From: Oscillatoriales cyanobacterium PMM_0008 | GTDB taxonomy: Bacteria > Cyanobacteriota > Cyanobacteriia > Cyanobacteriales > Aerosakkonemataceae | DNA length: 35,690 bases | Direction: 5' to 3' | Assembly (NCBI GenBank): GCA_949128025.1 | Contig: CASBRD010000116.1 | Span: 1-35,690, forward strand | In this document: one piece after another, positions 9,153-34,926 of the stretch | How positions within the stretch are numbered: position 1 is the first letter of the stretch | Layout of the letters: each line of letters opens with the position of its first letter | Notes under the pieces: generated by a model | Databases searched by the model: none | What the model was told of the DNA's origin: nothing | The model's input: only the letters and a program-made list of their open reading frames with translations | Translations under genes and position numbers: made by a program

Positions 9153-9169
9153 ATCGAGTTGGTCATTAG

Positions 9170-9266
9170 TCAGCAGTCAGCAGTCAGCAGTCAGCAATGA
9201 CTCTTAACTAATGACTCTTGACTAATGACTCTTGACTAATGACTCTTGACTAATGACCAATGACTA
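9170..9266. repeat. Heptamer and 14-mer tandem repeats running into the proC start
   Basis: First a 7-nt unit CAGCAGT/CAGTCAG is repeated about four times (9170-9196). Then a 14-nt unit ATGACTCTTGACTA is repeated four times with one variant (9197-9252). A fifth, partly diverged unit (9253-9266) contains the proC ATG at 9260. Period-7 repeats of this kind resemble the STRR elements known from filamentous cyanobacteria. Confidence 0.9.
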
Positions 9267-10069: not shown

Positions 10070-10080
10070 GTACTGGGCAA

Positions 10081-10112
10081 TTTTAGATTTTAGATTTTAG
10101 ATTTTAGATTTC
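10081..10112. repeat. TTTTAGA heptamer repeat
   Basis: About four and a half tandem copies of a 7-nt unit (TTTTAGA). The same word occurs around 5438-5483 on both sides of the four-helix-bundle gene. Confidence 0.85.
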
Positions 10113-10121
10113 CCCATGACT

Positions 10122-10285
10122 AATGATATCGTGTCCGGTTGCATCGTTAGTATATGAGTGATATTGTCAAATTGTCTGTTTTCATCGTTGGTTAAATTTT
10201 TACCGCAGATGAAGACAGATGAACGCAGATGAACGCAGATAAGAATAAGAACCTAAATTTTTTAGGTAACAGATGCTACCGGACA
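10122..10285. mobile_element. MITE-like dispersed element with terminal inverted repeats
   Basis: TGTCCGGTTGCATC at 10132-10145 is matched by GATGCTACCGGACA at 10272-10285, an inverted pair with one mismatch. The interior contains ACCGCAGATG and GAACGCAGATG repetitions. Positions 10122-10252 align without gaps to 27827-27957, where the right terminal repeat is absent. No ORF is inside. A separate GATGCCCATCCCACAAGAAG word follows at about 10330-10350 and has a relative near 35164-35190. Nothing else is recognisable up to 10388. Confidence 0.7.
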
Positions 10286-10388
10286 TAATAAGATATTACG
10301 CATCTAAATCCAATATAAAGACGGGCAGGATGCCCATCCCACAAGAAGATCGGAAAAACTGACTGTCAAATTAGATGCGTAGCAGCTT

Positions 10389-11756: not shown

Positions 11757-12014
11757 GTACGCGAAACCCGGTTTCTGGGCTTTACGACCTCAGACTGCCG
11801 AGTTTGAAAAGTTAAAAAATCTTTATATTTCCAAAAATGCTCTGTTGTCAACGCTGAGTGAAGCGAGTGGGGAATGAGTTAAAAGCGTTAGTGTTCGATC
11901 GCATTTTTCCTGATTTAGCGGGAGGATTTGTCGCGGATGCTATCCGACGAGGGGAAGAGGTGACATCGGAACAATGAGATGCACCATTGAAAAACCGCAA
12001 ATTTGAAAGAGGAA
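11757..12014. other. Intergenic region with a coding remnant
   Basis: GAAACCCGGTTTC near 11763 is a near-palindromic word. From 11875 to 11977 one frame reads like protein (ALVFDRIFPDLAGGFVADAI... ending at TGA 11975) without a start codon or upstream continuation, so it looks like the 3' end of a deleted gene whose identity I cannot name. The rest shows no gene. Confidence 0.35.
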
Positions 12015-12023
12015 TGGTATAAT
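12015..12023 (+). promoter_or_regulatory. Extended -10 promoter of the methyltransferase-nuclease gene
   Basis: TGG followed by TATAAT is a perfect extended -10 element. TTGAAA words upstream are too close or too far for a standard -35, as expected for TGn-type promoters. Transcription would begin near 12030, about 70 nt before the preferred GTG start at 12100. Confidence 0.5.
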
Positions 12024-12099
12024 CTGTGAAAGTCTGCGTTCAAGATATTGATAAAAGTCGTTACTCTATCTCTTTGGATTGTCACAGGAAAGCGAAATC

Positions 12100-14745
12100 G
12101 TGCAAAGTGTTTCTAAGTTTGATATTACAAGCAAAATTAGCCGTCAGCCCTACTACAGGACGCAGCTAGGTTCAGCCTACTTAGGTAATAGCTTGGAACT
12201 GATGGCAGAATTGCCCAATGAAAGTGTCGATTTGATTTTCACTTCCCCACCTTTTGCCCTAGTAAGAAAGAAAGAGTATGGCAATGTAGATGCCCATAAA
12301 TACGTCGAATGGTTCAAGGCATTTGCTAGTGAATTCTATCGTATTATCAAGCCCGAAGGATCGCTAGTCATAGATATTGGAGGAACTTGGATTAAAGGTT
12401 TTCCCGTGCGATCGCTTTATCATTTTGAGTTAGTAATAGAGCTTTGCAAACCAAAATCAGAAGGTGGTTTGGGTTTCTTCCTCGCCCAAGAGCTTTTTTG
12501 GTACAATCCAGCCAAACTTCCTACGCCTGCTGAGTGGGTGACGGTGCGGAGAGAGCGAGTAAAAGATGCTGTAAATACAATTTGGTGGTTATCAAAAGAT
12601 CCGCACCCTAAAGCCAATAACAAACGGGTTTTACGCCCTTACAGTGAGGCGATGAAAAACCTATTGAAAAATGGTTATGATGCAAAACTACGCCCGTCTG
12701 GGCATGATATTTCTACTAAATTTCAGAACGATCGGGGTGGTGCTATTCCTCCAAACATCATAGCCGATCCTACGTGCAGTTCCGGCGCGTTCATTGGGCA
12801 GCCAGTATTAGGAGAATTTAATTGGATTTTAGAGCATGATTTAGCACAGCCTGTCAATGTGATTTCCGCTTCTAATACTGCATCTAATGATTACTATCAG
12901 CGACGATGCAAAGAAGCAGAAATTAAACCTCATCCTGCTAGATTTCCCCAAGCATTACCTGAATTTGTCATCGCACTTTGTACTGAACCTGGTGATTTAG
13001 TTCTCGATCCATTTGCAGGTTCAAATACTACAGGACGAGTAGCGGAAACCCTCGATCGCCGTTGGTTAGCTTTTGAATTAGATCAAAATTATATTAAAGC
13101 ATCGCAGTTTCGATTTGAAGAAGATGCTCCATTGGTTGTTACTCCATTAAAAGAGAGAAAAGTTCTGAAAGCCAAAGCGCTGGCTTTAGCCCCTGATTAT
13201 ATTGACAAATCATCTACAATAGACGATCAAAATAGTTATATCCAATTAGACTTATTTCAATCACATAATAACAATATGGCAGATCAAAAACTAAAGTTTA
13301 CTTACGGGCATCAGTTTGAACCTAAAACGATGAATTTACCGGAACTGGTGCAACTCTGTGTAGATTGCCAGCCCGATCGCCGTATCCTACAGGTTGAAAT
13401 TGCCAAGCGTTATTATTCTAGTCACTCAACGCAAAATGATTTACAGCAAGGAGAAAATCGCAGCAAACTTGCAATGAATACATTTCTTTCTCTTCGTGCT
13501 TACAAGTTAGTTGAGTCGATTAATGATGATTGGCAGTACAAAGTAACAGATCTTGCTAATGAAATATTAGCTTATCAGAGCGATGCTGATGAAGCTGCTA
13601 CGATTTTTGCCCGTCACATCCTCACTAATTTAACTGGAATGTCTTTGCTGAAAGCAGTGGAAGCAATCAACAGTAGAGGCGATAAACCCAAATTAGATTT
13701 AATTGGTTACGAATTGCAAGAAATGGGGTATTCTCTCTCTCCTAATGCTATCTATGTTAGCACTATGCGGCAATGGTTACAAGAAGCAGGGGTATTTGAG
13801 AAAACATACGAAATTAATTGGGATCGAGTCTATGACATCCTAGAACTTGATAAAGACTATATTGATGAGATTTACACTCTTACCTCAGAGCAAAAGTATT
13901 TTCTATTGGCAATGCTCCAGATGAGCATTATAGAGCTAACCAAGTGGAATGACATTGCTAACTATGCGGTGAGTGTTTATAAAGTACGCTTCCCCTCAAA
14001 GTCATTTGTTAAGGATATTATTCAACCTTTAGTAGAAGTAGGTTTAATTGAAACTGAGAAAACTACGGGTGGACGTGGTGCTAAACCTAATCTTGTTAAG
14101 CTGACTGAAAAAGCACAGCGTGAATTACTGTTTAAATTGTTAGAGTCTATTGCAGACATGACAGAAATATCCCAAACTGAGCTAAATCGAAGTTTTGAAG
14201 ATGTTGTCAATGATTTAGATCATTCCGATAAACATATTAAAGGCAAAGCACTAGAATTGTTAGCAATTTGGATGATTCGTTTGACGAGTCTTCGATTCAC
14301 AAAATGGCGCAAACGGGACTATGAAACTGGACAAGGTGAAGTAGATGTTTTAGCTGCATCGGATCGCTTTGTTTATCACCGTTGGCAAATTCAGTGCAAA
14401 AACACCAAACGAGTAGATGTTGAGGTGTTAGCCAAAGAAATAGGGATGACTTTTGTAACTGGCGCTGATGTGGTGATGATTGTGACTACTGGTGAGTTTA
14501 CTAGAGATGCTTTCCAGTACGCTTATCGCATGATGGAAGTATCCCGTTATTATATGGTGCTGATTCAAAAAGAGGATATTGAGGCTATTAAAGAAGATAG
14601 AACTAATATTATCAAGATTCTCGATCGCCGCGCAAGGCGTGTATTTGCTAAGAAGGAATTAGGATTAACTGATAATGCAGTTGATGAGATGGAAATTGAA
14701 GAGGATTCACTGACAGAGTTTGATGGAGCATTTGAAGAGGAATAG
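12100..14745 (+). CDS. Single-chain DNA methyltransferase-winged helix-Mrr-type nuclease fusion
   Basis: 881 residues from GTG 12100, which has AGGAA nine bases upstream; TTG 12079 is the alternative. Residues 1-350 are an N4-cytosine/N6-adenine MTase in beta order: motif IV TSPPF at 48-52, then motif I DPFAGSNTTG at 303-312. TSPPF favours N4-cytosine. A second motif-I-like stretch, DPTCSSGAF, begins at Asp223 in a segment of about 35 residues that I believe is extra to the family. About 400-700 look like winged-helix modules, for example EVGLIETEKTTGGRGAKPNL. The C-terminus is a PD-(D/E)xK Mrr-type nuclease: Glu719 in GKALE, GEVD with Asp749, and QCK with Gln765 and Lys767. It is probably a self-contained type II-like system that modifies and cuts DNA. 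Known type IIG fusions usually put the nuclease first; here it is last. A DNA repair or nucleolytic sensor role is the alternative. Confidence 0.85.
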   Translation: MQSVSKFDITSKISRQPYYRTQLGSAYLGNSLELMAELPNESVDLIFTSPPFALVRKKEYGNVDAHKYVEWFKAFASEFYRIIKPEGSLVIDIGGTWIKGFPVRSLYHFELVIELCKPKSEGGLGFFLAQELFWYNPAKLPTPAEWVTVRRERVKDAVNTIWWLSKDPHPKANNKRVLRPYSEAMKNLLKNGYDAKLRPSGHDISTKFQNDRGGAIPPNIIADPTCSSGAFIGQPVLGEFNWILEHDLAQPVNVISASNTASNDYYQRRCKEAEIKPHPARFPQALPEFVIALCTEPGDLVLDPFAGSNTTGRVAETLDRRWLAFELDQNYIKASQFRFEEDAPLVVTPLKERKVLKAKALALAPDYIDKSSTIDDQNSYIQLDLFQSHNNNMADQKLKFTYGHQFEPKTMNLPELVQLCVDCQPDRRILQVEIAKRYYSSHSTQNDLQQGENRSKLAMNTFLSLRAYKLVESINDDWQYKVTDLANEILAYQSDADEAATIFARHILTNLTGMSLLKAVEAINSRGDKPKLDLIGYELQEMGYSLSPNAIYVSTMRQWLQEAGVFEKTYEINWDRVYDILELDKDYIDEIYTLTSEQKYFLLAMLQMSIIELTKWNDIANYAVSVYKVRFPSKSFVKDIIQPLVEVGLIETEKTTGGRGAKPNLVKLTEKAQRELLFKLLESIADMTEISQTELNRSFEDVVNDLDHSDKHIKGKALELLAIWMIRLTSLRFTKWRKRDYETGQGEVDVLAASDRFVYHRWQIQCKNTKRVDVEVLAKEIGMTFVTGADVVMIVTTGEFTRDAFQYAYRMMEVSRYYMVLIQKEDIEAIKEDRTNIIKILDRRARRVFAKKELGLTDNAVDEMEIEEDSLTEFDGAFEEE

Positions 14746-19100: not shown

Positions 19101-20323
19101 TTAAAACCGATCGCGATCCGAAGAATAGTTCGGCGACTGAGGATCGGGCGCAAACGCCAACCACAGGGGGAATTGCAGCACAGCTAGACTAATTTGGTCT
19201 TCTGTTTCGTCAATAATAATCAACGGCATCTGCCCTTCTTTAACCAACCGCTCAGCTTTCATTGCCATCGGTTCTGGCGCTTCAAACAGAGTTAGTCCCC
19301 GTTCTGGGCCAAAATCGCTGCGAGAAATGCCCAGACAGTCTTGTAAACCGCGCCTCCATTCGCCCAGGCGTTCGGGGGTATTTGCCAGGACTAGGCTGCG
19401 GAGACGATCGCCATATTGCGATCGCAACACCGAGATAATAGAAGAAGAAATCAGGATATTTTGCAGGCGAGAACCCATAGTCCGCAACGCGCCCTTCCCA
19501 CCCTGAGTGAAAACCAGTAGGAAGCGCGTTCAGCGTGAACTGGTTCAAAAGTGCGCCGCAGTTGCCAAGGCGGGCCATAATAATCCGGTCGCGTGCGGTA
19601 TTGGTCTAAAAGTTTGCGAATTTGCTTGGATTGTTCCTGAAAACCCTGCTCTGCAAATTTCGGCCCCCCAGGTTCTTTGATGGGTTTAGCATCCTTAATA
19701 ACGACCTTTTCTTCTGGTTCTGGGGCTTTGGGAATCAGTTCCAGTTGTTCGGCTGACGACGCCAGATCTTGCAAACTACCTACCAGATAGTCTTTAAAGC
19801 CTTGTACCCGAATTGCCAAGTCTTGAGAAACTCCAGCAAATGTCGTTTTCATCTCAGATCGAACCCGTTCCTGGCGGCGTTCTAACTGTTCTACGGCAAT
19901 TTGCAGCGTCTGCTTGCGTTGTTCTAATTCGCTCAAGCCTTCTTGAAGCAGGCGACCTAAAGTTGCTTGCGTTTCAGTCATTTGCTCGGAGAGGATTTTT
20001 CTGCTGGTTTGTAGGGAAGCAATTTCTTGTTTGAGAGACTGTTCCTCTTGCTTTAATTCAGCTACCCGTGCTTCTAACTCAGTTATGCGATCGCTCTTTT
20101 TCTGCACTTTATCGTCTATAGGCGCTGAATCCCCTTCTATCAACTGATTGTTTTGTTCAGTAGTTAGAGGCGATCGATCGCCTACTACCAAATCATCTTC
20201 AGGTAGCTCTGCAACCAAATCTACTCTGGCACTTCGATCTTGTAAATGATCCAATGCCTCAATAGCTGGTTCTTGCTCTGGCTGTTGCTCTTGTTTTTGG
20301 GTTTGGGGTTCTTCTGAATTCAT
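19101..20323 (-). pseudogene. DUF3086 protein interrupted by a one-base frameshift
   Basis: Two overlapping frames (20323 to 19451 and 19487 to 19101) together give the cyanobacterial DUF3086 protein. The first part has an acidic N-terminus, a long coiled coil (ELEARVAELKQEEQSLKQ and further heptads) and ends near RPDYYGPPWQLRRTFEPVHAERASYWF. The second starts GALRTMGSRLQNIL and continues through LVLANTPERLGEWRRGLQDCLGISRSDFG to LLQFPLWLAFAPDP-like sequence. Adding one T to the four-base run at 19510-19513 restores WFFTQGG and a single 407-residue frame. Homopolymer position and intact downstream sequence suggest a sequencing error or a very recent mutation. Function unknown; conserved next to DUF3119. 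Confidence 0.8.
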
Positions 20324-22239: not shown

Positions 22240-24042
22240 TTACCCCTCAAAAGGTCTTCCAGCCTTGATAGCGGGTTTGTTCTTCCCTACGGACAGGTAA
22301 AAAGCGAACCCTTGTTTAGCCGTCGCCGGATCGAGGGCAGTCTGGACAAGATTCTGATTAGTGGCGACATCAGCACCATTGCCAGTATCCCCTTTCGTTT
22401 CATTCTCTTGAATCCCATTCCAAGTAAGGTAGGTGCTTTTCAGATGGCGGAAGATTTCTTGATAAAGTTGGCTTCTCACGCGATCGCCCCGTTTCCCATC
22501 TTCCAGTTTGATATCATCCACAAAAAATGCTAGTTCCAAACCAATAAAATAGGAAACCTCATTATGATTAATTCCGATCATCCTGATTTGCGGTTCTTGC
22601 CATTTTTCTCGCGACAGTTTCAACTTTTCTTTGAGCCACTTAATTAAGTCCATCACATAATCATCTAATCGAGTTTCCTCACCTTGAGGATTGGATATCT
22701 TTTGAGACAAGCGTTGCGCTCTGCGCTTTAATACATTAATCTTTCGCTCCCATTCATCAGAAATGAAGTATTGATCTCGATCCAGTAAATTAGGATCTTT
22801 GAGCCAAACGCGATACCACTCCCTAATTAACTCAATCAGTCCTTCTTCATTATTTTCCTGAAACTCAAATCCACTGCGGTTGTTATTGTCTTCATCGATT
22901 ACTTGGAAACCCATAAGTTCTAAGATTGCTTGATATTCCTGTTGGACATTTTCTATTTCCTCTTCAGTTATCCCTCCTTTTTCAGCAAACTGCATTGTCA
23001 CAACCAAAGCTTCCAGCGCTTGTTCTATTTCCTCTAATTGGAAATTGACCGCCTGTTCCGCCAGTAGCCGTGATTTGCCGATTTTTTGTTGTTGGGTAAG
23101 ATGAGGGTCACATCCTTTATAGCTATAGTATCGATCGATCGTCTCCAATTTAGTATCGATATCCCCTAGTGTATCGGCATGAGCTAGCACAATTTCTTCA
23201 ATCAGCTTCCGGGTTTCATCAATATTAGATTCAGGGGGTATCTCTATATCCATAGCGATATAGTACAAAGAGGTAGGACGACTCAGATTCGTGAGTTTTT
23301 GACCCTGCAATACACTGTTAGGAATATAAACATCACAATGGTTACTAAATATATATAGCTGAGTCACTCTCACACCAATCCGGCGTAGCATTCCGATTGA
23401 ACCATCTTCAAGGAGCAGGATATCACCAAATTGAAAAGGAGTATCAATCAGTAAAACAATCCCACTAAAGAAATTAGCCAAAATATCCTGAAGTGCAAAA
23501 CCGAGAACAAAAGTAGCACCGCCCAGGGTTACCCAAAGTCCACTTAAATTAACTCCAAAGGTTCCGAGAACAAGAGCTCCGCCAGTAAGGAAGATCAGCA
23601 CAGGGACAACTGCTGATAGGATGGGAAGCAATACGTCATCCCACATGACTTCGCTTTTTTGAGTGTAATCTTTGAGGTAGTAAATAAAAACTTGGAGAAA
23701 TACTTGGATAGCCCAATAACTAAAGGTTATAATTATAATCGATGTCAGGATGTGTTCTATCCCTGTAGGAATTTTAACAGAGACTAAATTCTTAAAAGTG
23801 ATTTTTAGGGTGAAGATAGCGAAGACGATCAGTGCCGGATAGGCAGAAACACTTAGGGTAACGAGTGCGATGTCCCGTTCAAATTGCCGAAAGATCGGGC
23901 GCAAGATATAAAATAAGAATACATATAATAGCCCCGTTGCCAGAGCCGTGATTAGCAAACTAATCAGGATCGAATTCACTGTATTCATTTTATCAATTTG
24001 ATGCCAGAGGTTTTGTAACATAGCCGTTGCTCGATTTAACAT
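22240..24042 (-). CDS. MscS-type mechanosensitive channel with large C-terminal extension
   Basis: 600 residues, about twice E. coli MscS. Four N-terminal membrane spans (about 21-47, 60-80, 98-122, 138-160) precede the pore region at 165-200, with GGATFVLGFALQDILANFFSGI and the following FQFGD of the beta domain. Residues 205-285 fit the MscS beta domain (RRIGVRVTQLYIFSNHCDVYIPNSVL). Beyond that a long acidic, coiled region (YLL... EEIEQALEALVV... EYQAILELMGF) interrupts or extends the alpha/beta domain. MscS channels release solutes on membrane tension. AAGG six bases before the ATG supports the start. The last 30 residues (AKQGFAFYLSVGKNKPAIKAGRPFEG) overlap repeat-like DNA. Confidence 0.9.
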   Translation of the reverse strand: MLNRATAMLQNLWHQIDKMNTVNSILISLLITALATGLLYVFLFYILRPIFRQFERDIALVTLSVSAYPALIVFAIFTLKITFKNLVSVKIPTGIEHILTSIIIITFSYWAIQVFLQVFIYYLKDYTQKSEVMWDDVLLPILSAVVPVLIFLTGGALVLGTFGVNLSGLWVTLGGATFVLGFALQDILANFFSGIVLLIDTPFQFGDILLLEDGSIGMLRRIGVRVTQLYIFSNHCDVYIPNSVLQGQKLTNLSRPTSLYYIAMDIEIPPESNIDETRKLIEEIVLAHADTLGDIDTKLETIDRYYSYKGCDPHLTQQQKIGKSRLLAEQAVNFQLEEIEQALEALVVTMQFAEKGGITEEEIENVQQEYQAILELMGFQVIDEDNNNRSGFEFQENNEEGLIELIREWYRVWLKDPNLLDRDQYFISDEWERKINVLKRRAQRLSQKISNPQGEETRLDDYVMDLIKWLKEKLKLSREKWQEPQIRMIGINHNEVSYFIGLELAFFVDDIKLEDGKRGDRVRSQLYQEIFRHLKSTYLTWNGIQENETKGDTGNGADVATNQNLVQTALDPATAKQGFAFYLSVGKNKPAIKAGRPFEG

Positions 24043-24306: not shown

Positions 24307-24660
24307 TTATTCTACTACCAGTTTTAACCCTGGAAGCAATCGTTCTAAGTTTTTCAATGATTTACCTTGCCAGGGCACCTTCTTGCCCCCTAAAACCACT
24401 AATTGAGTCCCTTTCTTTTTCTTCATCCCCAGGACAAATTTAGATAACATACTGATGCCAGAACTGTTGAGGAATGCTAATTCTTTCACGTTTAATGTGA
24501 GGGTGTCTGGGTCTGAATTAGCCGCTTGATCGAGCAACTTAACAATGGGAACATAATCCTTGGGACTTCCTAGAGTAATATCCCCTTTAAAATAAACTGT
24601 TGAGGACGCTGGCTCGTATTCAACCTGATAGTCATCGCCTTTGACTTCTTGATTTGCCAT
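24307..24660 (-). CDS. STAS-domain protein (slr1659-type regulator)
   Basis: 117 residues from ATG 24660, which has AGGAG nine bases upstream; a longer frame to 24699 adds 13 residues without such a site. Anti-sigma-factor-antagonist fold: strands at YQVEYEPASSTVYFKG, helix, then LTLNVKELAFLNSSGISMLSKFVLGM, with Ser66/Ser67 at the position where SpoIIAA-type proteins are phosphorylated. The C-terminal TQLVVLGGKKVPWQGKSLKNLERLLPG completes the domain. It is the last gene of the leftward signalling series, 52 nt after the slr1658-like gene. By analogy its phosphorylation would be set by the neighbouring ATPase-like and PP2C proteins. Confidence 0.87.
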   Translation of the reverse strand: MANQEVKGDDYQVEYEPASSTVYFKGDITLGSPKDYVPIVKLLDQAANSDPDTLTLNVKELAFLNSSGISMLSKFVLGMKKKKGTQLVVLGGKKVPWQGKSLKNLERLLPGLKLVVE

Positions 24661-24712
24661 AAATTGTTTCTCCTTTTTTTCTTCAGATGTCCGAATCATG
24701 TATTAGTAAAAA

Positions 24713-25306
24713 TTATACAACAACTTGAGCCATTGTAGTAACAGTGACAATTTGTGGATGACTCGGATCGAACTCAAATTTCCAGCCTAATTTTGCTGAA
24801 TAATCATTGATTGCGGTCAGCAAACCTAAGCCAGAAGCTTCACTATCTTCGGATTCGGCTGTTTTTTCAATCTGCTGAACATATAACTCATTAGGATCGG
24901 CGTCAAGCAATTCCCTAATAAAGGCTTGAAATTCCCTAGCCTTTTGAGTTGTAATACTGTTTTCGGTAAAAATCACAGCTGTTACTTTCTCGAACTCTTC
25001 CAGAAAATGAATGCCAAATTTAACTTTATTAGGATTGTTTTCTTCGTTAAATTTCATGGCATTTTCTAACAGTTCGTTGCCGACATAACTCACTGAATTT
25101 CTAGTTGCTTCGATCCGATCTTCACGCCGATCGGGGTTTTCATCAATTGGCAGAAAGGTTGAAAAATAGTTGGCAATAAAATAAGCTGATAAGCGGTTAT
25201 TACGCCACCGTTCTTCAATTGGTCGAGAACTGGAGGTAAAGCTCAGTTCTAAAGACTCATGTTCGAGAGGAAAGTCCTCAATAAATTCTCCAAAAATTTG
25301 GCTCAT
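24713..25306 (-). CDS. slr1658-type regulator, anti-sigma/histidine-kinase-like ATPase relative
   Basis: 197 residues, the length of the cyanobacterial slr1658/DUF6272 family. It contains YVGNELLENAMKFNEENNPNKV, which matches the N-box region of GHKL ATPases (NELLENAxKF), and SGLGLLTAINDYSAKLGWKF, which resembles the glycine-rich lid. The C-terminus ends QIVTVTTMAQVVV. Such proteins are found next to PP2C-type response regulators and STAS proteins. A kinase or switch role towards the STAS protein is the natural inference. No Shine-Dalgarno is seen; the gene follows the receiver-PP2C gene by 72 nt. Confidence 0.85.
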   Translation of the reverse strand: MSQIFGEFIEDFPLEHESLELSFTSSSRPIEERWRNNRLSAYFIANYFSTFLPIDENPDRREDRIEATRNSVSYVGNELLENAMKFNEENNPNKVKFGIHFLEEFEKVTAVIFTENSITTQKAREFQAFIRELLDADPNELYVQQIEKTAESEDSEASGLGLLTAINDYSAKLGWKFEFDPSHPQIVTVTTMAQVVV

Positions 25307-25378
25307 ATTTGTTACTTGTTAATTGATTGAAGGTTAATTAGTGGCTGCAAAATCTTGATGGCGAACATTGGCATATCA

Positions 25379-26692
25379 TTAGCGAAACAACCTGAATTTT
25401 TTCCTTTTGGTCGCAGTCCCTTTAACTTCCTCAACTGGTTCCTCTTCCTCAACTGGTTCCTCTTCCTCAACTGGTTCCTCTTCCTCAACTGGTTCCTCTT
25501 CAAAGTCAAATTCTTTCTGTTTAACAATTAATAAAGTAATGTCATCAAAAACCTTTTGTTTGCCGATAAATCCTTTAACATCATCAACTATAACTTGCTT
25601 AATTTCTTCGGCAGAGCCATCCCAGTTTTGACTGGCAACTTCGCATAATCTCTCAAGCCCATATTGTTCTTTATCCATGTTGTACGCTTCAGGAATTCCA
25701 TCGGTATAGAGGACGATTCCATCCCCCGCATTTAATTCGATGATGGTATGATTGATAAAGTCAGTAATTTCCTCATCTAACCCAATCGGAAACCCCAGAT
25801 CCATCGTGTTAACTCGCTCAATTTCGCCTCCCTTTCGCACTACAATAGTTTCTTCATGCTGACCGCTGATACTAACTTTGCCTTTTGTATAAGTGAGAAT
25901 GACTAATGTCAAACTCTTTTCTGAATTCATCCGGCGGACATTTTTATAAAGAGTGCGGTTGAGGGCGTCTAAAAATTTAACTGGATCGAGTTCTCGAATT
26001 TCTTTAAGAGTACGGACTGCTGTTTGGGTCATTACCATTAAGATGCCACTTTCGAGTCCGTGTCCGGTGACATCACCGATCCCAATTGTAACTACGCCGT
26101 CTGTGTAGAGAACATCATAATAGTCGCCGCCAACTTCGTCGGCTGGTTCCATAAAACCGGCAATTTCTAAACCTTCTATGGCTTCTAGTTCATCTGATGT
26201 AGGCAGAATCATGTGTTGCATTTGGCGCAACATCTCCAGTTCTTTAGCCATGCGGAAGTTTTCGGCTTGGAGGATGGCTTCGGCTTCGTTGCGTTTGAGA
26301 AGGTTTACATAAGCTTTAGAGTGGTAGCGGATGCGGGCGACCAGTTCTGCTTTGTCTGGGAGTTTGACTATATAATCGTTTGCGCCTAATGCAAAAGCTT
26401 TTGCTTTAATGAGGGGTTCTTCTTTACTAGAGAGAACGATCAGGGGAACGTATTTCGTGGGAGCGTTTTGGGCTCTCAGAAAGCGCACTAAGACCAGTCC
26501 TTCCATTTCTGGCATAACTAGGTCTTGTAAGATGACTGTTGGCTGACATGACTTGGCGACTTTGAGTGCTTTGGTAGGGTCGCTACAGTAATGAAAGGTG
26601 ATATCTTTTTCTGGCAGTAACATTCGACGAACGGCTTCGCCGATCATGGGCTGATCGTCGATGAGTAAGACTGTGATTGGATCTTCTGCCAC
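25379..26692 (-). CDS. Response regulator with PP2C-type (RsbU/SpoIIE) serine phosphatase domain
   Basis: 437 residues with a GTG start and AAGGAAG eight bases upstream. Residues 1-120 are a receiver (acidic IDD at 11-13, phospho-acceptor Asp57 in LQDLVMP, Lys110 in IVKLP). A coiled linker (about 135-165) leads to a SpoIIE/PPM phosphatase with Asp190 in VGGDYYDVL, Asp207 in GIGDVTGHG, VLYTDGIPEA and FDDITLLIVK. Phosphorylation of the receiver would control dephosphorylation of a STAS protein. The C-terminal 35 residues are EEEPVE repeats followed by a basic end (KRKKFRLFR). Likely cotranscribed with the slr1658/slr1659 pair. CheB ends 52 nt upstream. Confidence 0.94.
   Translation of the reverse strand: MAEDPITVLLIDDQPMIGEAVRRMLLPEKDITFHYCSDPTKALKVAKSCQPTVILQDLVMPEMEGLVLVRFLRAQNAPTKYVPLIVLSSKEEPLIKAKAFALGANDYIVKLPDKAELVARIRYHSKAYVNLLKRNEAEAILQAENFRMAKELEMLRQMQHMILPTSDELEAIEGLEIAGFMEPADEVGGDYYDVLYTDGVVTIGIGDVTGHGLESGILMVMTQTAVRTLKEIRELDPVKFLDALNRTLYKNVRRMNSEKSLTLVILTYTKGKVSISGQHEETIVVRKGGEIERVNTMDLGFPIGLDEEITDFINHTIIELNAGDGIVLYTDGIPEAYNMDKEQYGLERLCEVASQNWDGSAEEIKQVIVDDVKGFIGKQKVFDDITLLIVKQKEFDFEEEPVEEEEPVEEEEPVEEEEPVEEVKGTATKRKKFRLFR
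25427..25502. repeat. 18-bp minisatellite in the phosphatase C-terminus
   Basis: Four near-perfect copies of an 18-nt unit (plus-strand CTGGTTCCTCTTCCTCAA) encode tandem EEEPVE hexapeptides. It keeps the frame, and the copy number may vary between strains. Confidence 0.9.
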
Positions 26693-26744
26693 TGCTTTGA
26701 CTTCCTTTTGAGATGTTGAAGAGAAGATAGAATGTAGCGAGTAA

Positions 26745-27782
26745 CTAGCGCGTCATTGCTATTCGATCGATTAAGGTAGTGGCGATCGCATCTAGGGGTA
26801 AAACCTCCACCGCAGCACCCAAGTCTACTGCTGCTTTGGGCATCCCATAAACCACACAACTGGCCCGATCTTGGGCGATCGTATGCCATCCCTTGTTGCG
26901 TAACACACTTAGCCCCTCCGCTCCATCTCTGCCCATACCTGTTAGCAGCACAGCAGTTCCTGGGCGACTCCAGTGCTGAGCTACACTTTTGAAAAATACA
27001 TCAACTGAAGGACGATAGGGATAATCAATCGGGTTTTTCGTATAACTTAAACTCAAAGAAGGTTGCAACGACAGGTGATCGTTCGTTCCGGCAATTAATA
27101 CTTTTCCTACTTCGAGACGATTTCCTTGGGATGCTAGCTGCACGCTCAGGGGCGTTTGTTGATTTAGCCATTCTACTAAACTGGGGGTAAATTCTGCATC
27201 TACGTGCTGGACAATAACTACTGCTGCACCGAAAGAAGCCGGTAAGCGAGATAGGATCTTTGCCAGAGCGTTGGGCCCTCCTGTTGAAGAACCGATCGCC
27301 ACTAGAGGAGGCAAACGGGATGCGCTGGGCGCGAAGATAGATTGAGGGCTTTCGGTATGGGTTTTGGATTTAGAAGTTCCGCCTGATTTGCCAATCAGTT
27401 TCCCGATCGTCACAATTTTCGCAAGCATTGCTTGGGCCGCTTCAGGGTTGCCGCTTGGGCCTAAAACTGGTGTGCTGACGGCATCTAATGCCCCATATCC
27501 CATTGCTTCAAATACTTTAGACGCATTTTGCCCAACACTAGCTGTTACCACCAGAATAGCGCAGGGAGAATTCTTCATGATCTGGCGAGTTGCTTCTACC
27601 CCATCCACGATCGGCATGACCAAATCCATCAGAATCAGGTCTGGGGTATCTTGGGCGCATTTAGTCACTGCTTCAGCACCATCCCGTGCTATCCAAGCCA
27701 CTTGATAGTCTTTGACAGTCATCAAGACGCGCCGTAGCGTCTCTACTGCCATCACCATATCGTTTACAATTGCTATTCTCAT
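26745..27782 (-). CDS. cheB: Chemotaxis response regulator protein-glutamate methylesterase CheB
   Basis: 345 residues. CheB removes methyl groups from MCP glutamates to adapt the array. The receiver (1-120) has Asp8 and Asp53 in LILMDLVMP; the residue before Asp8 is Asn where most receivers have Asp. The methylesterase has Ser166 in GSSTGGP, His193 in VQHVD and Asp286 in [10 protein letters not shown], the expected triad. The ending is [20 protein letters not shown], as in the family. Its methyltransferase partner CheR is not in the window. It starts after a dispersed repeat that separates it from the CheA-type gene by 227 nt, and no Shine-Dalgarno is seen. Confidence 0.95.
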
Positions 27783-27789
27783 ATTATTT

Positions 27790-27810
27790 AGTCATTAGTC
27801 ATTAGTCATT
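27790..27810. repeat. AGTCATT heptamer repeat
   Basis: Three perfect tandem copies of a 7-nt unit just upstream of cheB. The unit is the reverse complement of the AATGACT word repeated before proC at 9197-9257. Confidence 0.85.
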
Positions 27811-27826
27811 TTATTCTAAATTAACC

Positions 27827-27957
27827 AATAATATCATGTCCGGTGGCATCGTTAGTACATGAGCGATCTCGTCAAATTGTCTGTTGTTATCGTTGGTTAA
27901 ATTTTTACCGCAGATGTAGACAGATGAACGCAGATGAACGCAGATAAGAATAAGAAC
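27827..27957. mobile_element. Truncated second copy of the MITE-like element
   Basis: Aligns without gaps to 10122-10252. It contains TGTCCGGTGGCATC at the left and the CAGATGAACGCAGATGAACG repetition, but lacks the right terminal inverted repeat seen at 10272-10285. It occupies the cheA-cheB gap and divides what would otherwise be a contiguous operon. Confidence 0.75.
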
Positions 27958-28009
27958 ACGATTTTGGATCGAGAGCGGATTCATTCGAGATCGATCCAAA
28001 ATCCCAAAT

Positions 28010-30964
28010 CTAATGACCTATCAAATCGAACACTGCGTTTACTAACGTATCGTCCTGGAAGCTGGCTTTTGTTAAGTAATAATTTGCTCCAGCTTCCAAC
28101 CCGCGTAGGCGGTCTTCTTCGCGGTCTTTGTAGGAGACAATAATCACTGGGATTTTATTCAGTTTGGGATGATTTTTAATCTTGCTGGTAAACTCAATTC
28201 CGTTCATACGGGGCATATCAACATCACTAACTACCAAATCGTAGTGATTTGTGGAAACGGCGTGCCAACCTTCCATTCCATCAACTGCGACATCAACCTT
28301 GTAACCTTTGTTTTGGAGCAATTTTCGTTCCATTTCGCGCACGGTAATGGAATCATCCACTACCAGAATACTCTTGCGGCTGTCTGTCACAACCCGATCG
28401 GCATTGCTAACAACACGATTCAACATATGGCTGCCATTAAGCAGATTATCGACAGAACGCATCAAGTCAGAAGCATCGACAATCAGGATCGGGGAACCGT
28501 CTCCCATTAAAGCAGCAGCACTAATATCCTGAACTTTCCCCAGTCTTGGTTCTAACGGTCTGACCACCAAATCGTGTTCGCCCAAAAAGCGATCGACCAC
28601 CAGTCCGTAATAGTCTGATTGTTCGCTGATCACGACAACAGATAAGGTGTCGGACTTCGGCGGGGGTTGCTTCAACTCCAATACTTGATAAGCGGCTACT
28701 AAGCCGATATTCTTATTGTCCATAGTGAAATATTGCCGGTTTTCCACTGAGGAAATATCCTTTTTATCCACGTTGACAATTTGCTCAATCCGCGCTAGGG
28801 GAAAGGCATAAGGTTCGCCGGATATTTCTACTAAGAGGGTGCGAACAACGGAGAGCGTCAAAGGCAACTGGAAGTTAAAAGTCATGCCTTTTCCCGGCTG
28901 AGAACTGGCTCGCACGTTGCCGCCAACATCGTGCGCCATGCTTTTAGCAATATCCAATCCAACACCGCGACCGGAAATTTCGGTGACTTGCTTGGCTGTG
29001 GAAAATCCAGGCAAAAACAGAAATTCCATCAGTTCGCTTTCGTTAAGCTGAGCTGCTATTTCCGGAGTTGCCAGACTCTTATCAATAATTTTTTGACGTA
29101 GGCGCTCTGGGTCGATTCCTCTACCATCGTCAGTGATGGTAATCGATAGCATTCCGCCGCGATGGACGGCTTCGAGCCGCACGGTTCCTTCTGCTGGTTT
29201 GCCTGCGGCTAGGCGCTCTTCGGGAAGCTCCATACCGTGATCGATCGCATTCCGCAAAATGTGGGTGAGGGGAGCTTCCAGTTTTTTGATGATATCGCGA
29301 TCGACTGGCGTGGCTTTGCCGAGAATATCAAATCTAACTTGTTTGTTCAGCTTCCTGGCTAAATCGCGCAGCATCCGGGGAAATCCCTGCACGCCATCGG
29401 CGAAGGGACGCATATTAGATGCGATTACTTCCCGGTAGAGGCGATCGCTTAAGGAGCCGGTGCGACGGGCATATAATTCTAGTTCGATCAGGCGATCGCT
29501 CAAAATCTGCCGACATTCCCGCTCCTTGGCGCGAGCGGCTTCTAAATAAGTGTCGCTATCTTGATTGTGGTGGACTGCCAGAGTTTGCTGAAAATTCTCT
29601 AAAATTTTCGATAATTCCAGTTGGCGTTTCTTGAGGATCGTCAGGGAATCGGCAAAGGGCTGAAGCCAATTTGCCTCGATCAGAGATTCCCCTGCCAAAC
29701 CCATGATGCGATTTAAGTTTTCGGCTGAAACCCGTACAACGCGATCGCTATTCGCCGCATCTTCTGCGGGTTGCTTGGCTTTCTCCACATTACCAGATGT
29801 TTGCCTAGCGATCGATTTGGTGTCCTTCCCCCCAGTTGGTTGTGTTTGGATGCCAGCAGACGCAGCAACAACCATTTCTTGCTTTTGCCCCGAAGCAGAT
29901 TGTGCCTGAGTTTCCTGCTGTGAGGGGGCCCTTTTAACTGGGGCCGATCCCGGTGTCAGCAGCGCAGAAATTTCCTCTCTAGTATTTTCAACATCTTCCC
30001 GATTTTGCTTAACCCAACTTTGCCCGTGCTGACTGATGTTTAACAGCAAATCGACTCCATGCAGCAGCACGTCAACCCCATCTGCCTCCAGGGTAATCTT
30101 TTGGTTCTGCGCTGCTACAAAGGCGTCCTCCATCACGTGAGCCAAATTAACAGCAGCATCAAGCGCCACGATGCGGGCAGCCCCTTTAATGGAATGGGCC
30201 GCTCGCATTAAAGATTCCAGTACTTTAGGAGAACCCGGTTGACTTTCTAGCGCTAACAGTCCCTCGTTTAAGACGGTTGCTTGGGCGTCTACTTCCATCT
30301 GGAATAACTCCAACATTGAAGTGTCGCCGATGCTTGACATCTCGTCTGCTTCTGGAGAAGATTCACTGTCTGCGATCGCGGTTGTTTGTGAATGACTGGG
30401 CGTTTCTTGATTATAAACGGGGGTAACATCTATAGCAGGCAGGTTTGGGACAATTTTTGTCTGTTTCCTGTTGAAATCATCTTCTAAACTTACCTCTACA
30501 GTTGGTAGCTCCGGCTTTGCAGATTTGCTTTTTGCCTCTACCCTTCGCTTAGAAACTGATGCCGTACCCAGCGTCAGCAGGTTAGCAATACTGTCTGTAA
30601 TAGTTTCGATCTCATCTTGATTTTCTGATAGCCAATCCTCTAAATTTTCTTCCTTTACCCGGCTAATATTTAACAGTAAATCGACCCCTTGCAGCAGCAA
30701 TTCAATCTGACCGCCACTCAGGGTAATGCTTTGCTTTTGGGCGTTATCAAGGCCACTCTCTATGCCCTGAGCCAGGTTAATAGCCGCATCGATTTCGACC
30801 AGCCTAGCGGTTCCTTGGATCGCATTAGCAACGCGCATCAAGGACTCCAGCATTTGGCGAGTCTGGGGTTCGCTTTCCAAGGATAATAGCCCCTGGTTTA
30901 ATATGGCTGCTTGGGCTTCCACTTCCTGCCGGAACACATCTAGCATCGTGAAGTCGCTCATCAT
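28010..30964 (-). CDS. CheA-type hybrid histidine kinase with two HPt domains and a receiver
   Basis: 984 residues. Order: HPt-like domain 1 (about 1-110), HPt domain 2 (about 215-330), a linker, a dimerisation/ATPase core with the N box around Asn572 (LRNAIDHGME), DDGRGIDPERL and GRGVGLDIAKSM, a CheW-like domain (about 720-850) and a C-terminal receiver with Asp914 in VVSDVDMP. HPt2 keeps the phosphorylatable His257 in AAHSIKGAAR. HPt1 has Asn47 at the same place (VANAIQGTAR) and cannot be phosphorylated in the normal way. The kinase is recruited to MCP arrays by CheW. GGAGG lies two bases before the first ATG and five before a second, in-frame ATG. It lies 17 nt after cheW. Confidence 0.93.
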   Translation of the reverse strand: MMSDFTMLDVFRQEVEAQAAILNQGLLSLESEPQTRQMLESLMRVANAIQGTARLVEIDAAINLAQGIESGLDNAQKQSITLSGGQIELLLQGVDLLLNISRVKEENLEDWLSENQDEIETITDSIANLLTLGTASVSKRRVEAKSKSAKPELPTVEVSLEDDFNRKQTKIVPNLPAIDVTPVYNQETPSHSQTTAIADSESSPEADEMSSIGDTSMLELFQMEVDAQATVLNEGLLALESQPGSPKVLESLMRAAHSIKGAARIVALDAAVNLAHVMEDAFVAAQNQKITLEADGVDVLLHGVDLLLNISQHGQSWVKQNREDVENTREEISALLTPGSAPVKRAPSQQETQAQSASGQKQEMVVAASAGIQTQPTGGKDTKSIARQTSGNVEKAKQPAEDAANSDRVVRVSAENLNRIMGLAGESLIEANWLQPFADSLTILKKRQLELSKILENFQQTLAVHHNQDSDTYLEAARAKERECRQILSDRLIELELYARRTGSLSDRLYREVIASNMRPFADGVQGFPRMLRDLARKLNKQVRFDILGKATPVDRDIIKKLEAPLTHILRNAIDHGMELPEERLAAGKPAEGTVRLEAVHRGGMLSITITDDGRGIDPERLRQKIIDKSLATPEIAAQLNESELMEFLFLPGFSTAKQVTEISGRGVGLDIAKSMAHDVGGNVRASSQPGKGMTFNFQLPLTLSVVRTLLVEISGEPYAFPLARIEQIVNVDKKDISSVENRQYFTMDNKNIGLVAAYQVLELKQPPPKSDTLSVVVISEQSDYYGLVVDRFLGEHDLVVRPLEPRLGKVQDISAAALMGDGSPILIVDASDLMRSVDNLLNGSHMLNRVVSNADRVVTDSRKSILVVDDSITVREMERKLLQNKGYKVDVAVDGMEGWHAVSTNHYDLVVSDVDMPRMNGIEFTSKIKNHPKLNKIPVIIVSYKDREEDRLRGLEAGANYYLTKASFQDDTLVNAVFDLIGH

Positions 30965-30981
30965 ATCCTCCCTCTTATTTG

Positions 30982-31671
30982 TTATAAAATTCTTTTGTTT
31001 AAAGTGGAAAACAATAAATCCGAATCTAGGTAATTAACCTTATGCCCCTGCCAGCGAATCACCCCTTTTGTATAAGCTTCTGTGGATTTTGAAATCACGA
31101 CAGGTGTATTTTGTAATTCCCTTAGTGGGAAGCGATGAATACCGCAAACTTCATCAACAATAAAAACCCAATGATTTTCTTGGCTTCCCACAACTATCAT
31201 CCGTTTAGCAGCAACAGAAATGACACGATCTGAAGAGTTAGCTTTATCTTCCAGGTCAAGCAGATGGGTGAGGGAAACGCACATGAGAATTTCTCCTCTA
31301 ATGTTGACCAACCCCATAAACAGTTCGCTGTTGCGGTGGGGTAAAGTATGAATTATACAGGGATCTGTCACTTCCTGAAGTAACCCTACTGGCACAGCTA
31401 ACCATTCGCCGCCCAGCATAAATATCATAACTGATACGGTTTCTACAGAAGGAACAATGGCCCCGTTAACTTGTGCTTTAGAACTAAGGGGCTGAGTTTT
31501 TGCTAGGATCTCAGTCCACTCGTTGACATACTCTGGTGGTGCTTCCCTTTCTAATAAACTGCGTCCGGCGGCAGAATAAACGGGGCAGTTACGACAGTGA
31601 ATCACTGTTTTGAGTTGTTCGCAGGACCGATCGCCCTCAACGCCTATTTTATTCCAGCAATCGTTACTCAT
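30982..31671 (-). CDS. cheW: CheW-type coupling protein with N-terminal cysteine motif
   Basis: 229 residues, longer than a plain CheW. The C-terminal 140 residues are the CheW domain (VMIFMLGGEWLAVPVGLLQEV, HTLPHRNSELFMGLVNIRGEILMCVSL, VIVDEVCGIHRFPL-like region). The first 45 residues contain four cysteines, C5, C17, C26 and C29, spaced C-x11-C-x8-C-x2-C in CW...SCEQL...HCRNCP; this may bind a metal or an iron-sulphur cluster. CheW links MCPs to the CheA-type kinase. AGGAGGGTT directly before the ATG is a strong Shine-Dalgarno. It lies between MCP and kinase genes with short gaps. Confidence 0.94.
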   Translation of the reverse strand: MSNDCWNKIGVEGDRSCEQLKTVIHCRNCPVYSAAGRSLLEREAPPEYVNEWTEILAKTQPLSSKAQVNGAIVPSVETVSVMIFMLGGEWLAVPVGLLQEVTDPCIIHTLPHRNSELFMGLVNIRGEILMCVSLTHLLDLEDKANSSDRVISVAAKRMIVVGSQENHWVFIVDEVCGIHRFPLRELQNTPVVISKSTEAYTKGVIRWQGHKVNYLDSDLLFSTLNKRIL

Positions 31672-31710: not shown

Positions 31711-33309
31711 CTAAGCGGCTTGAAAACCAGAAATTTGCTGGCGTAAGCCTTGCGCCGCCTCGTTCAACTGGCGAATAGCACCGTTAATCTCACGCAAAGA
31801 CTGGGCAGTTTGCGATGAAGCTTCACTTAGCTGCACCATTGCCTCACTGATTTGCTCGGCTCCCTCTGCCTGTCCTTCCATACTGCCACTCACCTGTTTA
31901 AAGCGGGGTGTTAAGGTTTGCACTTGCCCAATAATTGACTCTAATTTTGTGCCGATATTACGGACATTTTCCACACTCATTTCTACGTCTTTCGTGAACT
32001 TATCCATTTCCATCACTCCTGTGGAAACTGCGCCTTGCATCTCTTTGACCATATTTTCGATGTCCAAGGTCGCAACTGCTGTTTGATCCGCTAGACGGCG
32101 AATTTCTCTTGCAACTACAGCAAAACCCGTGCCGTACTCCCCGGCTTTTTCGGCTTCAATCGCCGCGTTGAGTGAAAGTAAGTTGGTTTGATCTGCTACT
32201 TTGGTGATGGTGGTGACAATGCTGTTAATGCTGTTGGCTTTATCGCTAATCGTTCCCAGTTTTGACGATATCGTATTAGTTGAAGATGCCAATTTCTGCA
32301 TGGTTTTTTCCATCTGCAACAAGTCTTTTTGACTTTCACCCGCTGCCTGTGCAGTTACTTGGGAAATCCGCTCGACTTCATCTATTGTTTTTAGTAGGTT
32401 CTTGGAATTAGCCGCAATTTCTTTCGCTGTAGCGGCTACCTGATTCGTAGAGGCAACCTGTTCTGTCATTGTTGCCTCCAGTTGTTTGCCAGAGGCAGCA
32501 ATTTGGGTGGTAGAAGTGGTAATTTGAATGCCAGATTGCTGCACCTCGGTGGCGAGTGGTTTGGCGATCGTATTATTAAAATACCAACCCAATAATGCAG
32601 CGATTATCGGCCCAGCAATCACACCTATAACTATCGAGAATGTGCTGAGAGCAACATCTAGACTGGCTGCTTTGCGAACATTGTTTGCCACGTTTTCATT
32701 GTATAATATGAGTTTTTGCAGTGCGCCTGTTGATGATACAAATGTGTCATGTAATGTCGTCGCTGCGTAATCATTCATTTTGTCGATTACCCCAACCGCA
32801 CCCTCTGCGGCTGTATACTCAGGTGTATTAGTTTTTCCCTGCTTCACCAGAGCAATTAGAACTTGTCTGGCGTTAATGACGCCATAGGTCAAAAATTCTT
32901 CGTGAAGCTTGACAAATTTATTATGAGCTGCTATCCATTTTTCTCCTTCAGGCACAACTTTTTTATAAAGGTTATCTTCTTCTGGATCGCGAGGAATTTT
33001 TGCGTAGTCGTTAAAGGCTGCACTTATCTCTTTCATAGCAGTCTCCATTTCTGCTATATTTTTCTGCCTTTGCTCCGCAGTTAAGGCTGTAACCATCAAC
33101 AAGTTTTCTGATGATTGAACTCTAGATTGTGCTTCGTTGACTTTCCACAGATTAACCATGCTGGGAAAAGCCTTCTCGCTGACTATTGTAAGGTCATGGC
33201 TCAGCCGCGAAGTTGCAAACCAGCCGATTAACCCCACTATTAATACAAGTAAACCAACCAGCATAAATGAGCTGATTATTCGCGTTTGCAATGACATATT
33301 TTTAAACAT
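31711..33309 (-). CDS. Methyl-accepting chemotaxis protein with 4HB-type sensor
   Basis: 532 residues. TM1 about 12-32, a helical sensor domain at 35-205 (four-helix-bundle type, with SKRLSHDLTIVSEKAFPSMV-like start), TM2 about 218-244 and a long cytoplasmic coil. The signalling tip around 385-410 contains [21 protein letters not shown] do not see a separate HAMP domain after TM2. The terminal 150 residues are almost identical in DNA to the other MCPs here. GGGGGA about six bases before the ATG supports the start; a second ATG is four codons on. It precedes cheW by 39 nt. Confidence 0.93.
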   Translation of the reverse strand: MFKNMSLQTRIISSFMLVGLLVLIVGLIGWFATSRLSHDLTIVSEKAFPSMVNLWKVNEAQSRVQSSENLLMVTALTAEQRQKNIAEMETAMKEISAAFNDYAKIPRDPEEDNLYKKVVPEGEKWIAAHNKFVKLHEEFLTYGVINARQVLIALVKQGKTNTPEYTAAEGAVGVIDKMNDYAATTLHDTFVSSTGALQKLILYNENVANNVRKAASLDVALSTFSIVIGVIAGPIIAALLGWYFNNTIAKPLATEVQQSGIQITTSTTQIAASGKQLEATMTEQVASTNQVAATAKEIAANSKNLLKTIDEVERISQVTAQAAGESQKDLLQMEKTMQKLASSTNTISSKLGTISDKANSINSIVTTITKVADQTNLLSLNAAIEAEKAGEYGTGFAVVAREIRRLADQTAVATLDIENMVKEMQGAVSTGVMEMDKFTKDVEMSVENVRNIGTKLESIIGQVQTLTPRFKQVSGSMEGQAEGAEQISEAMVQLSEASSQTAQSLREINGAIRQLNEAAQGLRQQISGFQAA

Positions 33310-33429: not shown

Positions 33430-34926
33430 TCAATTATTTCCCACTTTAAAACGAGATATTTCCTGGCGTAAACCTTGTCCAGCTTCGTTTAATTCCCTAA
33501 TAGAACTGTTAATCTCACGCAAAGACTGGGCCGTTTGCGATGAAGCTTCACTTAATTGTACCATTGCCTCGCTAATTTGCTGTGCCCCTTCTGACTGTCC
33601 TTCCATGCTGCTACTCACTTGTTGAAAGCTGGGGGTGAGAATTTGCACTTTCTCGATAATCGACTCTAATTTACTGCCGATATTACGAACATCATCCACA
33701 CCCCGTTCTACATCTTTGGTAAATTTATCCATTTCCATCACCCCTGTGGAAACTGCGCCTTGCATCTCTTTTACCATAGTTTCGATGTCCAAGGTCGCAA
33801 CTGCTGTCTGGTCAGCTAAGCGGCGAATTTCACGGGCAACTACAGCAAAACCCGTGCCGTACTCCCCGGCTTTTTCGGCTTCAATCGCCGCGTTGAGTGA
33901 GAGTAAATTGGTTTGATCTGCTACTTTGGTGATCGTGGTAACAATACTATTAATACTGTTAGCTTTTTCACTAATAGTTCCCAGTTTTGATGAGATGGTA
34001 TTAGTTGCACCTGCCAACATCCGCATAGTTTGTTCCATGTGGTTCAGGTCTTTTTGACTCTCATCAGCGGCTTGGGCCGTTGTTTCCGACTTATGCTTAA
34101 CTTCATCCATTGTCTTTACCAATTGTGCCGAGGTGACAACAATCGCCTTGGCTGTCGCAGCTACCTGATTGGTCGAAGCAACTTGTTCGGTCATCGTTGC
34201 TTCGAGTTGCTTGCCTGATGAGGCGATTTGGGTGGCAGAGGTGGTGATTTGAATCCCGGATTTCTGTACCTGACCCATTAAAGCATTCAGATTTTCAGTC
34301 ATTATGCGAACAATTAAAAATGAAATGAATGAGCCAATCCCTATGACAAGTAGGGTACTCCCCCAAGCAAACTTAGTAGAAAAGTTCCTAGCTTCAATTG
34401 CGGTATTATTCCGAGCGACTAGGAGTTTATCCTCCGCTTGATTCATTTCTTCAATTTTTGTCCTGAGTTCGGCCATAATCCGCTGCCCCGCCCCTGAAAC
34501 TACTCTCTCTTTTGTCTCGTCGAATTTTTCTGCTTTTTGCATAGAAATAGTTTCTGCTAAGTAAATTTTTCTGCGTTGAACTACTTCTTGAAGTTTCGCT
34601 AGTCTTTGTTTTTGGTCTGGGTCTTTGATAAGATTTGTTAATTTTGAGAAGTCATCGTCAAGCTTTGTTAATGAATCATTGTATGGTTCTAAAAAGCTTT
34701 CTTTATTTGTGTACAAAAAACCCCGTTGACCTGTTTCGGCCTGTACTAAATGTTTTTCTAACATTTGTAGTTGTAATTGAACTTTATAGGTTGAAATTAC
34801 CCCATTAATGGATTGACTTGAAGTTTCATAGCCTCGCTCATTAACAACATTGGTAATTATAACCAATGCAAAAACTATCCCGAAACCCATCCACAAAAAT
34901 TGAGAAACACTTATACGTTTTAACAT
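33430..34926 (-). CDS. Methyl-accepting chemotaxis protein with CHASE3-type sensor
   Basis: 498 residues. TM1 about 10-29, then a periplasmic helical domain whose [31 protein letters not shown] stretch is typical of CHASE3, TM2 about 186-207, and a cytoplasmic domain starting [39 protein letters not shown]. The signalling tip [15 protein letters not shown] and the C-terminus [11 protein letters not shown] are shared with the neighbours. No clear HAMP. It ends 120 nt before the next MCP. Confidence 0.93.

Follow-up and report, generated by a model that had tools for sequence, protein, structure and literature searches.

A Wsp-type chemosensory operon of a cyanobacterium with a receiver-PP2C regulator and a putative partner switch

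Main finding

A Wsp-type operon in which a PP2C phosphatase replaces the diguanylate cyclase of WspR, and thereby drives a partner switch, is the favoured reading of the chemosensory genes of Oscillatoriales cyanobacterium PMM_0008, with a probability of roughly 0.8. The DNA analysed (hereafter the window) is the entire 35,690-nucleotide contig C116 (CASBRD010000116.1) from this fragmented genome. The reading builds on features that are directly observed, namely the genes and their order, conserved catalytic residues, the WspR ancestry of the receiver, the cassette ancestry of the remaining genes and their linkage. The original prediction, that the array could signal through serine phosphorylation and not through CheY, is supported by the sequence data: the catalytic residues needed for such signaling are conserved, the receiver is of the WspR type and no CheY is linked.

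Operon organization and conservation

The six genes previously grouped as one module, encoding CheW, hybrid CheA, CheB, the REC-PP2C regulator, the slr1658 protein and the STAS protein, were all recovered on the minus strand with strong domain matches (Table 1). The extent assigned to this module was too short, since the MscS gene that belongs to the operon had been omitted.

Table 1. Genes of the array-switch operon in the window.
Feature	Coordinates	Strand	Evidence or remark
MCP, C-terminal part, cut at contig end	35277–35690	-	continues in C423 behind cheW, cheR-TPR
MCP, CHASE3 sensor domain	33430–34926	-	Pfam MCPsignal 2.7e-35, CHASE3 3.7e-34
MCP, four-helix-bundle sensor domain	31711–33309	-	Pfam MCPsignal 2.4e-34, 4HB_MCP_1 7.3e-17
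CheW, WspD position, N-terminal Cys-rich extension	30982–31671	-	Pfam CheW 9.4e-22
Hybrid CheA, WspE-like: Hpt x2, HATPase, CheW, REC	28010–30964	-	domain matches, CheA tree
CheB methylesterase with receiver, WspF-like	26745–27782	-	Pfam CheB_methylest 1.3e-61, REC 1.2e-15
REC-PP2C response regulator, WspR slot	25379–26692	-	SpoIIE 3.5e-37, REC 1.8e-18
slr1658-family (DUF6272, SiaB-like) putative serine kinase / switch protein	24713–25306	-	NF052618 2.3e-76
slr1659-family STAS, putative phosphorylated switch partner	24307–24660 (ORF 24307–24699)	-	NF047705 5.1e-43
MscS-type channel, long C-terminal extension, last operon gene	22240–24042	-	Pfam MS_channel_2nd 1.1e-9, synteny

The undivided operon, in the order CheW-CheR-MCP(1–3)-CheW-CheA-CheB-REC-PP2C-slr1658-slr1659-MscS, is present in two genomes of the same genus (L126, L127) and in several other families. 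Because a matching gene order recurs in these congeners, in other families (L128, L130, L088, L132, L133) and in Rhizonema sp. (L219), the arrangement of array and switch is not due to chance. In the compact genomes of f5/g161, the operon genes overlap by 4 bp. The gaps between cheA and cheB (227 bp) and between the STAS and MscS genes (264 bp) could hold promoters, and a scan for promoters and terminators gave no excess over shuffled sequences. A co-occurrence check by genome further revealed that 24 of 25 genomes with a REC-PP2C regulator in the WspR slot also carry a Wsp-type CheA, the 25th carrying a truncated copy, compared with 80 of 364 genomes without the slot REC-PP2C (Fisher p 4e-14, kinship ignored). 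The proposed joining of array and switch is thus supported by the shared gene order, by the overlaps in compact relatives and by the co-occurrence across genomes.

The earlier statement that the window holds no cheR is correct to the letter but does not describe a real absence: CheR is missing because the contig ends there. A 3.5-kb contig, C423, carries CheW, CheR and MCP in this order, and its end shares 119 identical bp with the right end of the window, in agreement with the MCP reading frame and as the sole other exact match in the genome. The CheR encoded on C423, one of four in this genome, has TPR repeats, as does WspC. A genuine lack of CheR was thus ruled out as a contig-edge effect, both by this overlap and by the whole operon in the two congeners. 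The window was also reported to lack cheY, and CheY is linked in none of the complete operon copies.

Two side observations concern the wider neighbourhood. In L132 (genome G366), an extra hybrid histidine kinase (10370–12310) lies between CheB and REC-PP2C and may feed another signal into the receiver. In addition, the overlapping window ORFs 19451–20323 and 19101–19487 correspond to a single frame of at least 388 aa in the congener L126, so that the split appears to reflect a frameshift or sequencing error.

Relationship of the array to Wsp systems

Wsp-like arrays are of the surface-sensing type. In the CheA tree, the window CheA shares a clade (support 100/99) with Burkholderiaceae WspE and with proteins of arrays from numerous phyla, and the ten other cyanobacterial CheA proteins included lie outside it. 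The window CheW is 35–44% identical to the CheW found at the same position in Wsp-type operons; the second CheW of the operon lies with CheR-TPR on C423 and in the congeners. When compared with the PDB, the receiver of REC-PP2C matched WspR best (3i5a/3bre, E 7e-47), followed by the next protein at 4e-19. The betaproteobacterial operons retrieved with this receiver are arranged identically and encode a GGDEF regulator, as ordinary Wsp operons do. Altogether, the CheA clade, the Wsp gene order and the receiver match identify the array as Wsp-type, that is, of alternative cellular function (ACF). It falls outside Wsp sensu stricto, since a PP2C (SpoIIE) domain stands where a Wsp system has its GGDEF diguanylate cyclase output.

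The WspABCDEFR systems of Pseudomonas and Burkholderiaceae share with the operon the order MCP-CheW-CheR-TPR-CheW-hybrid CheA-CheB-regulator. They differ from it in ending on a GGDEF diguanylate cyclase instead of PP2C and a partner switch, and the window operon additionally has several MCPs, MscS at its end and cheW-cheR ahead of the MCPs. According to a 2012 survey, CheR-TPR together with a multidomain response regulator marks ACF (non-motility) arrays (PMC3447774), and both are present here, the regulator being REC-PP2C. The same survey already catalogued REC fused to a PP2C-type phosphatase as an ACF array output and nowhere mentions STAS proteins (PMC3447774). In comparison with these ACF clusters, which share the REC-PP2C output, the slr1658/slr1659 pair, MscS and repeated capture are additional in the cyanobacterial operon.

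Pilus linkage is frequent among cyanobacterial arrays, and Nostoc hormogonium motility uses Hmp together with HmpUVW (PMC6495340); both would fit an array that steers type IV pilus motility like Hmp, Tax or Pix. Such a role is highly improbable here, given the separation of the window CheA from other cyanobacterial CheA proteins, the lack of a linked CheY/PatA-type regulator and the non-motility mark described above. An array of the pilus or phototaxis type as such was rejected on the CheA tree (100/99). Within the window CheA, Asn47 replaces the phospho-accepting His of the first Hpt domain, as it does in several relatives while others keep the His; the second Hpt domain retains His257, and the Asp of the CheA receiver is conserved.

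The receiver-PP2C regulator and exchange of outputs

The receiver Asp57 and the PP2C metal ligands D190, D207, D331, D383 and D384 are invariant across the array-linked REC-PP2C copies. An AF2 model (pLDDT 89) consists of a receiver, a 49-residue helix and a SpoIIE/RsbU-type PP2C domain, with structural matches to RssB overall, to WspR for the receiver and to SiaA-PP2C for the phosphatase. An acidic EEEPV-repeat tail with a basic end (25379–25500), modelled at low confidence, occurs in only one sub-group of the aligned window-type (type-A) proteins.

Wsp-type CheA was found in 104 of 389 genomes of the order. At 20 of these loci that lack a window-type REC-PP2C, any regulator that follows CheB has class III cyclase, histidine kinase or PAS domains. 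Loci L198–L216 represent such other cyanobacterial Wsp-type arrays, with a class III nucleotide cyclase, histidine kinase or PAS domain in the slot regulator. In a receiver tree based on few columns and a short search, all 40 sampled slot receivers form a single long-branch clade regardless of their output (PP2C, cyclase, histidine kinase or PAS), and receivers from REC-PP2C proteins without array linkage branch separately. In a set of 60 slot regulators linked to arrays in many phyla, which is biased because REC-PP2C served as the query, 37 carry a SpoIIE-type PP2C, 14 GGDEF and 8 a nucleotide cyclase, which indicates that REC-PP2C outputs of Wsp-type arrays are common, as catalogued in 2012 (PMC3447774).

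Since the receiver is of the WspR type, it occupies the ordinary substrate position of such an array. This placement bears on the alternative that array and switch are neighbours that are merely co-expressed, with another histidine kinase driving REC-PP2C, an explanation that we consider very unlikely. Orphan kinases are numerous in cyanobacteria, and in part of family f5 CheA is encoded far from the REC-PP2C-CheB-slr1658-slr1659 cluster, as would suit an unwired arrangement. However, the receiver belongs to the clade of array receivers and not with those of non-array REC-PP2C proteins, CheB is still the neighbour of REC-PP2C in genomes whose CheA has moved away, and the slot regulator co-occurs with array CheA in all but one genome, as given above. 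Control of REC-PP2C by the array therefore remains the preferred reading.

The slr1658 and slr1659 switch proteins

In the slr1658 protein, the N-box ELLENA and the SGLG motif are invariant across array-linked copies, and the match to the SiaB family model (5.8e-7) lies below the family cut-off. A structure model built from two sequences reached a pLDDT of 34 and a profile search of the PDB returned nothing significant, so that the putative GHKL-type serine kinase activity of slr1658 rests on family models. For the slr1659 profile, the PDB gave a SpoIIAA-like match at no better than E 0.1. The STAS protein belongs to the slr1659 superfamily and carries a conserved candidate phosphorylatable Ser within the motif FLNSSGISMLSKF (NSSG), which is invariant in 17 sequences and corresponds to Ser79/Ser80 of the 130-aa ORF. 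Translation probably starts at codon 14 of this ORF, where the homologues begin.

Slr1658 and Slr1659 of Synechocystis 6803 belong to the same NCBIfam protein families as the window pair and are known from an iron-recovery and pgr5 phenotype, with no array link reported (PMC7555055). Loss of slr1658 affects iron recovery in this organism, and the mutants overexpress pgr5 (PMC7555055). As the window genome contains one slr1658 only above the family cut-off, the iron-recovery/pgr5 pathway would be under the command of the array. The pgr5 overexpression, together with the general logic of PP2C/kinase/STAS trios, would also fit a sigma-factor switch, with slr1658 as an anti-sigma factor released by slr1659 in the manner of SpoIIAB/RsbW. 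This option appears unlikely: the clusters examined lack any sigma gene, slr1658 is of the DUF6272/SiaB type and not HATPase_c_2, and the SiaB partner SiaC targets a diguanylate cyclase (PMC7647112, PMC8457831). Separately, in genome G179 slr1658 has been lost between REC-PP2C and STAS (L129, 5829–7740), and a related slr1658 stands alone on another contig (L195, 9390–9983); the trio therefore need not stay adjacent.

The MscS channel and the sensor-swappable cassette

Close MscS homologues are present in 76 of 389 genomes. Among 20 array-free MscS loci, 13 encode MscS and an slr1658-slr1659 pair on one strand, mostly with MscS directly after the pair, and 7 orthologues sit away from slr1658/slr1659. 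The cassette PP2C proteins have varied sensor heads, such as ETR1-like (L058), MHYT (L299) and CHASE2 (L302), and the PP2C domains of these free cassettes are 68–71% identical to that of the window. In the slr1658 tree, all 24 proteins sampled from MscS-linked loci, the window included, fall within one 33-member clade, with the type-B proteins (described below) outside. From the cassette PP2C identity, the MscS linkage and the slr1658 clade, it follows that the window holds a sensor-swappable PP2C-slr1658-slr1659-MscS cassette headed by a Wsp-type array. MscS as a component of the array was rejected, as it tracks the switch cassette.

Further cassettes of this composition (L298–L316) bear many sensor heads and occur in several cyanobacterial families. 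In L058 (genome G125, 8252–12847), an ethylene-receptor-like sensor (ETR1_N, E 1e-41) fused to PP2C is followed by slr1658, two slr1659 genes and MscS; this locus is a candidate ethylene input to the cassette.

The cassette raises the question of whether MscS is itself the effector, with the slr1659 STAS protein, in its unphosphorylated or its phosphorylated form, binding the long cytoplasmic extension and gating the channel; in that case the array would act on turgor or ion flux and not on transcription. All complete copies of the window type, and that of Rhizonema as well, end with MscS, and both its position beside array-free pairs and the single slr1658 clade agree with this idea. It is nonetheless doubtful, since the type-B array clusters of family f5 lack this MscS, the seven orthologues noted above lie apart from the pair and loss of slr1658 in Synechocystis alters transcripts (pgr5) (PMC7555055). 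Equally tentative is the broader proposal that the array acts on the partner switch, that the STAS protein, set by PP2C and slr1658, binds and gates the mechanosensitive-type channel MscS, and that the cassette serves as a general cyanobacterial output with many heads.

Evidence for repeated joining of array and switch

Two arrangements were distinguished. Type A, that of the window, has CheB, REC-PP2C, slr1658, slr1659 and MscS and occurs in four cyanobacterial families, while type B, mostly from family f5, has REC-PP2C, CheB, slr1658 and slr1659, with CheA often elsewhere in the genome. A single joining of array and switch is rejected by PP2C (p-AU 1.9e-4), slr1658 (4.6e-11) and STAS (0.02), whereas CheB does not reject it (p-AU 0.22). 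With a single origin rejected, either array and switch came together on two or more occasions within cyanobacteria or one switch has taken the place of another at the same site. Outside cyanobacteria, bacterium SM23_31 (L225, 9289–11404) offers a third case, in which a Wsp-type array and its slot regulator precede an RsbW-type kinase and a STAS protein, both from families other than those of the window.

Proposed signaling route and related systems

In the proposed route, receptors tuned by CheR-TPR and CheB would control the hybrid CheA, and His257 in the second Hpt would donate phosphate to Asp57 of the WspR-type receiver, for which the receiver of CheA itself and CheB would be competing acceptors. 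Once phosphorylated, the WspR-type receiver would act on PP2C by way of the long helix between them, either activating or inhibiting it. The slr1658 kinase is predicted to phosphorylate the slr1659 STAS protein on serine and PP2C to remove that phosphate, whereupon the unphosphorylated STAS protein may leave or join a partner. MscS, as part of the switch cassette, may be the effector or a co-regulated stress valve. The phosphotransfers, the direction of control and the STAS target are inferred.

In Bacillus cereus, RsbK-RsbY couples a histidine phosphorelay to a STAS protein by way of a receiver-PP2C protein. The HptB-HsbR-HsbA pathway of Pseudomonas (PMC5085249) likewise leads from a histidine phosphorelay to a receiver-PP2C that controls STAS. 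Both systems receive their input from hybrid kinases or HptB, whereas the route proposed here starts at a dedicated Wsp-type array within one operon. SiaABCD of Pseudomonas aeruginosa shares the logic of PP2C, DUF6272-like kinase and switch protein, and the PP2C fold of SiaA matches; it differs in having a membrane sensor phosphatase (SiaA), in the target of SiaC, which is the diguanylate cyclase SiaD, and in lacking a chemosensory array (PMC7647112, PMC8457831). The window operon has neither a SiaC-type protein nor SiaD, its STAS protein being of the slr1659 family and a GGDEF gene being absent. Nostoc punctiforme, with Hmp and HmpUVW, is a cyanobacterium that likewise uses chemosensory and partner-switching systems for one process, and its hmpA-E and hmpUVW genes lie at separate loci (locus tags, PMC10581220). 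No description of a joined array, switch and channel was found in the open-access literature searched, which is weak evidence of novelty.

Implications

These results turn the role of a non-motility array in cyanobacteria into a testable wiring diagram, in which the poorly understood slr1658/slr1659 pair gains a defined input and the conserved MscS neighbour becomes a concrete candidate effector. A switch cassette of separate ancestry has been joined to arrays, and the further case elsewhere uses an RsbW-type kinase. Arrays keep their receiver when the output domain changes, which shows that bacteria swap the outputs of these arrays part by part.
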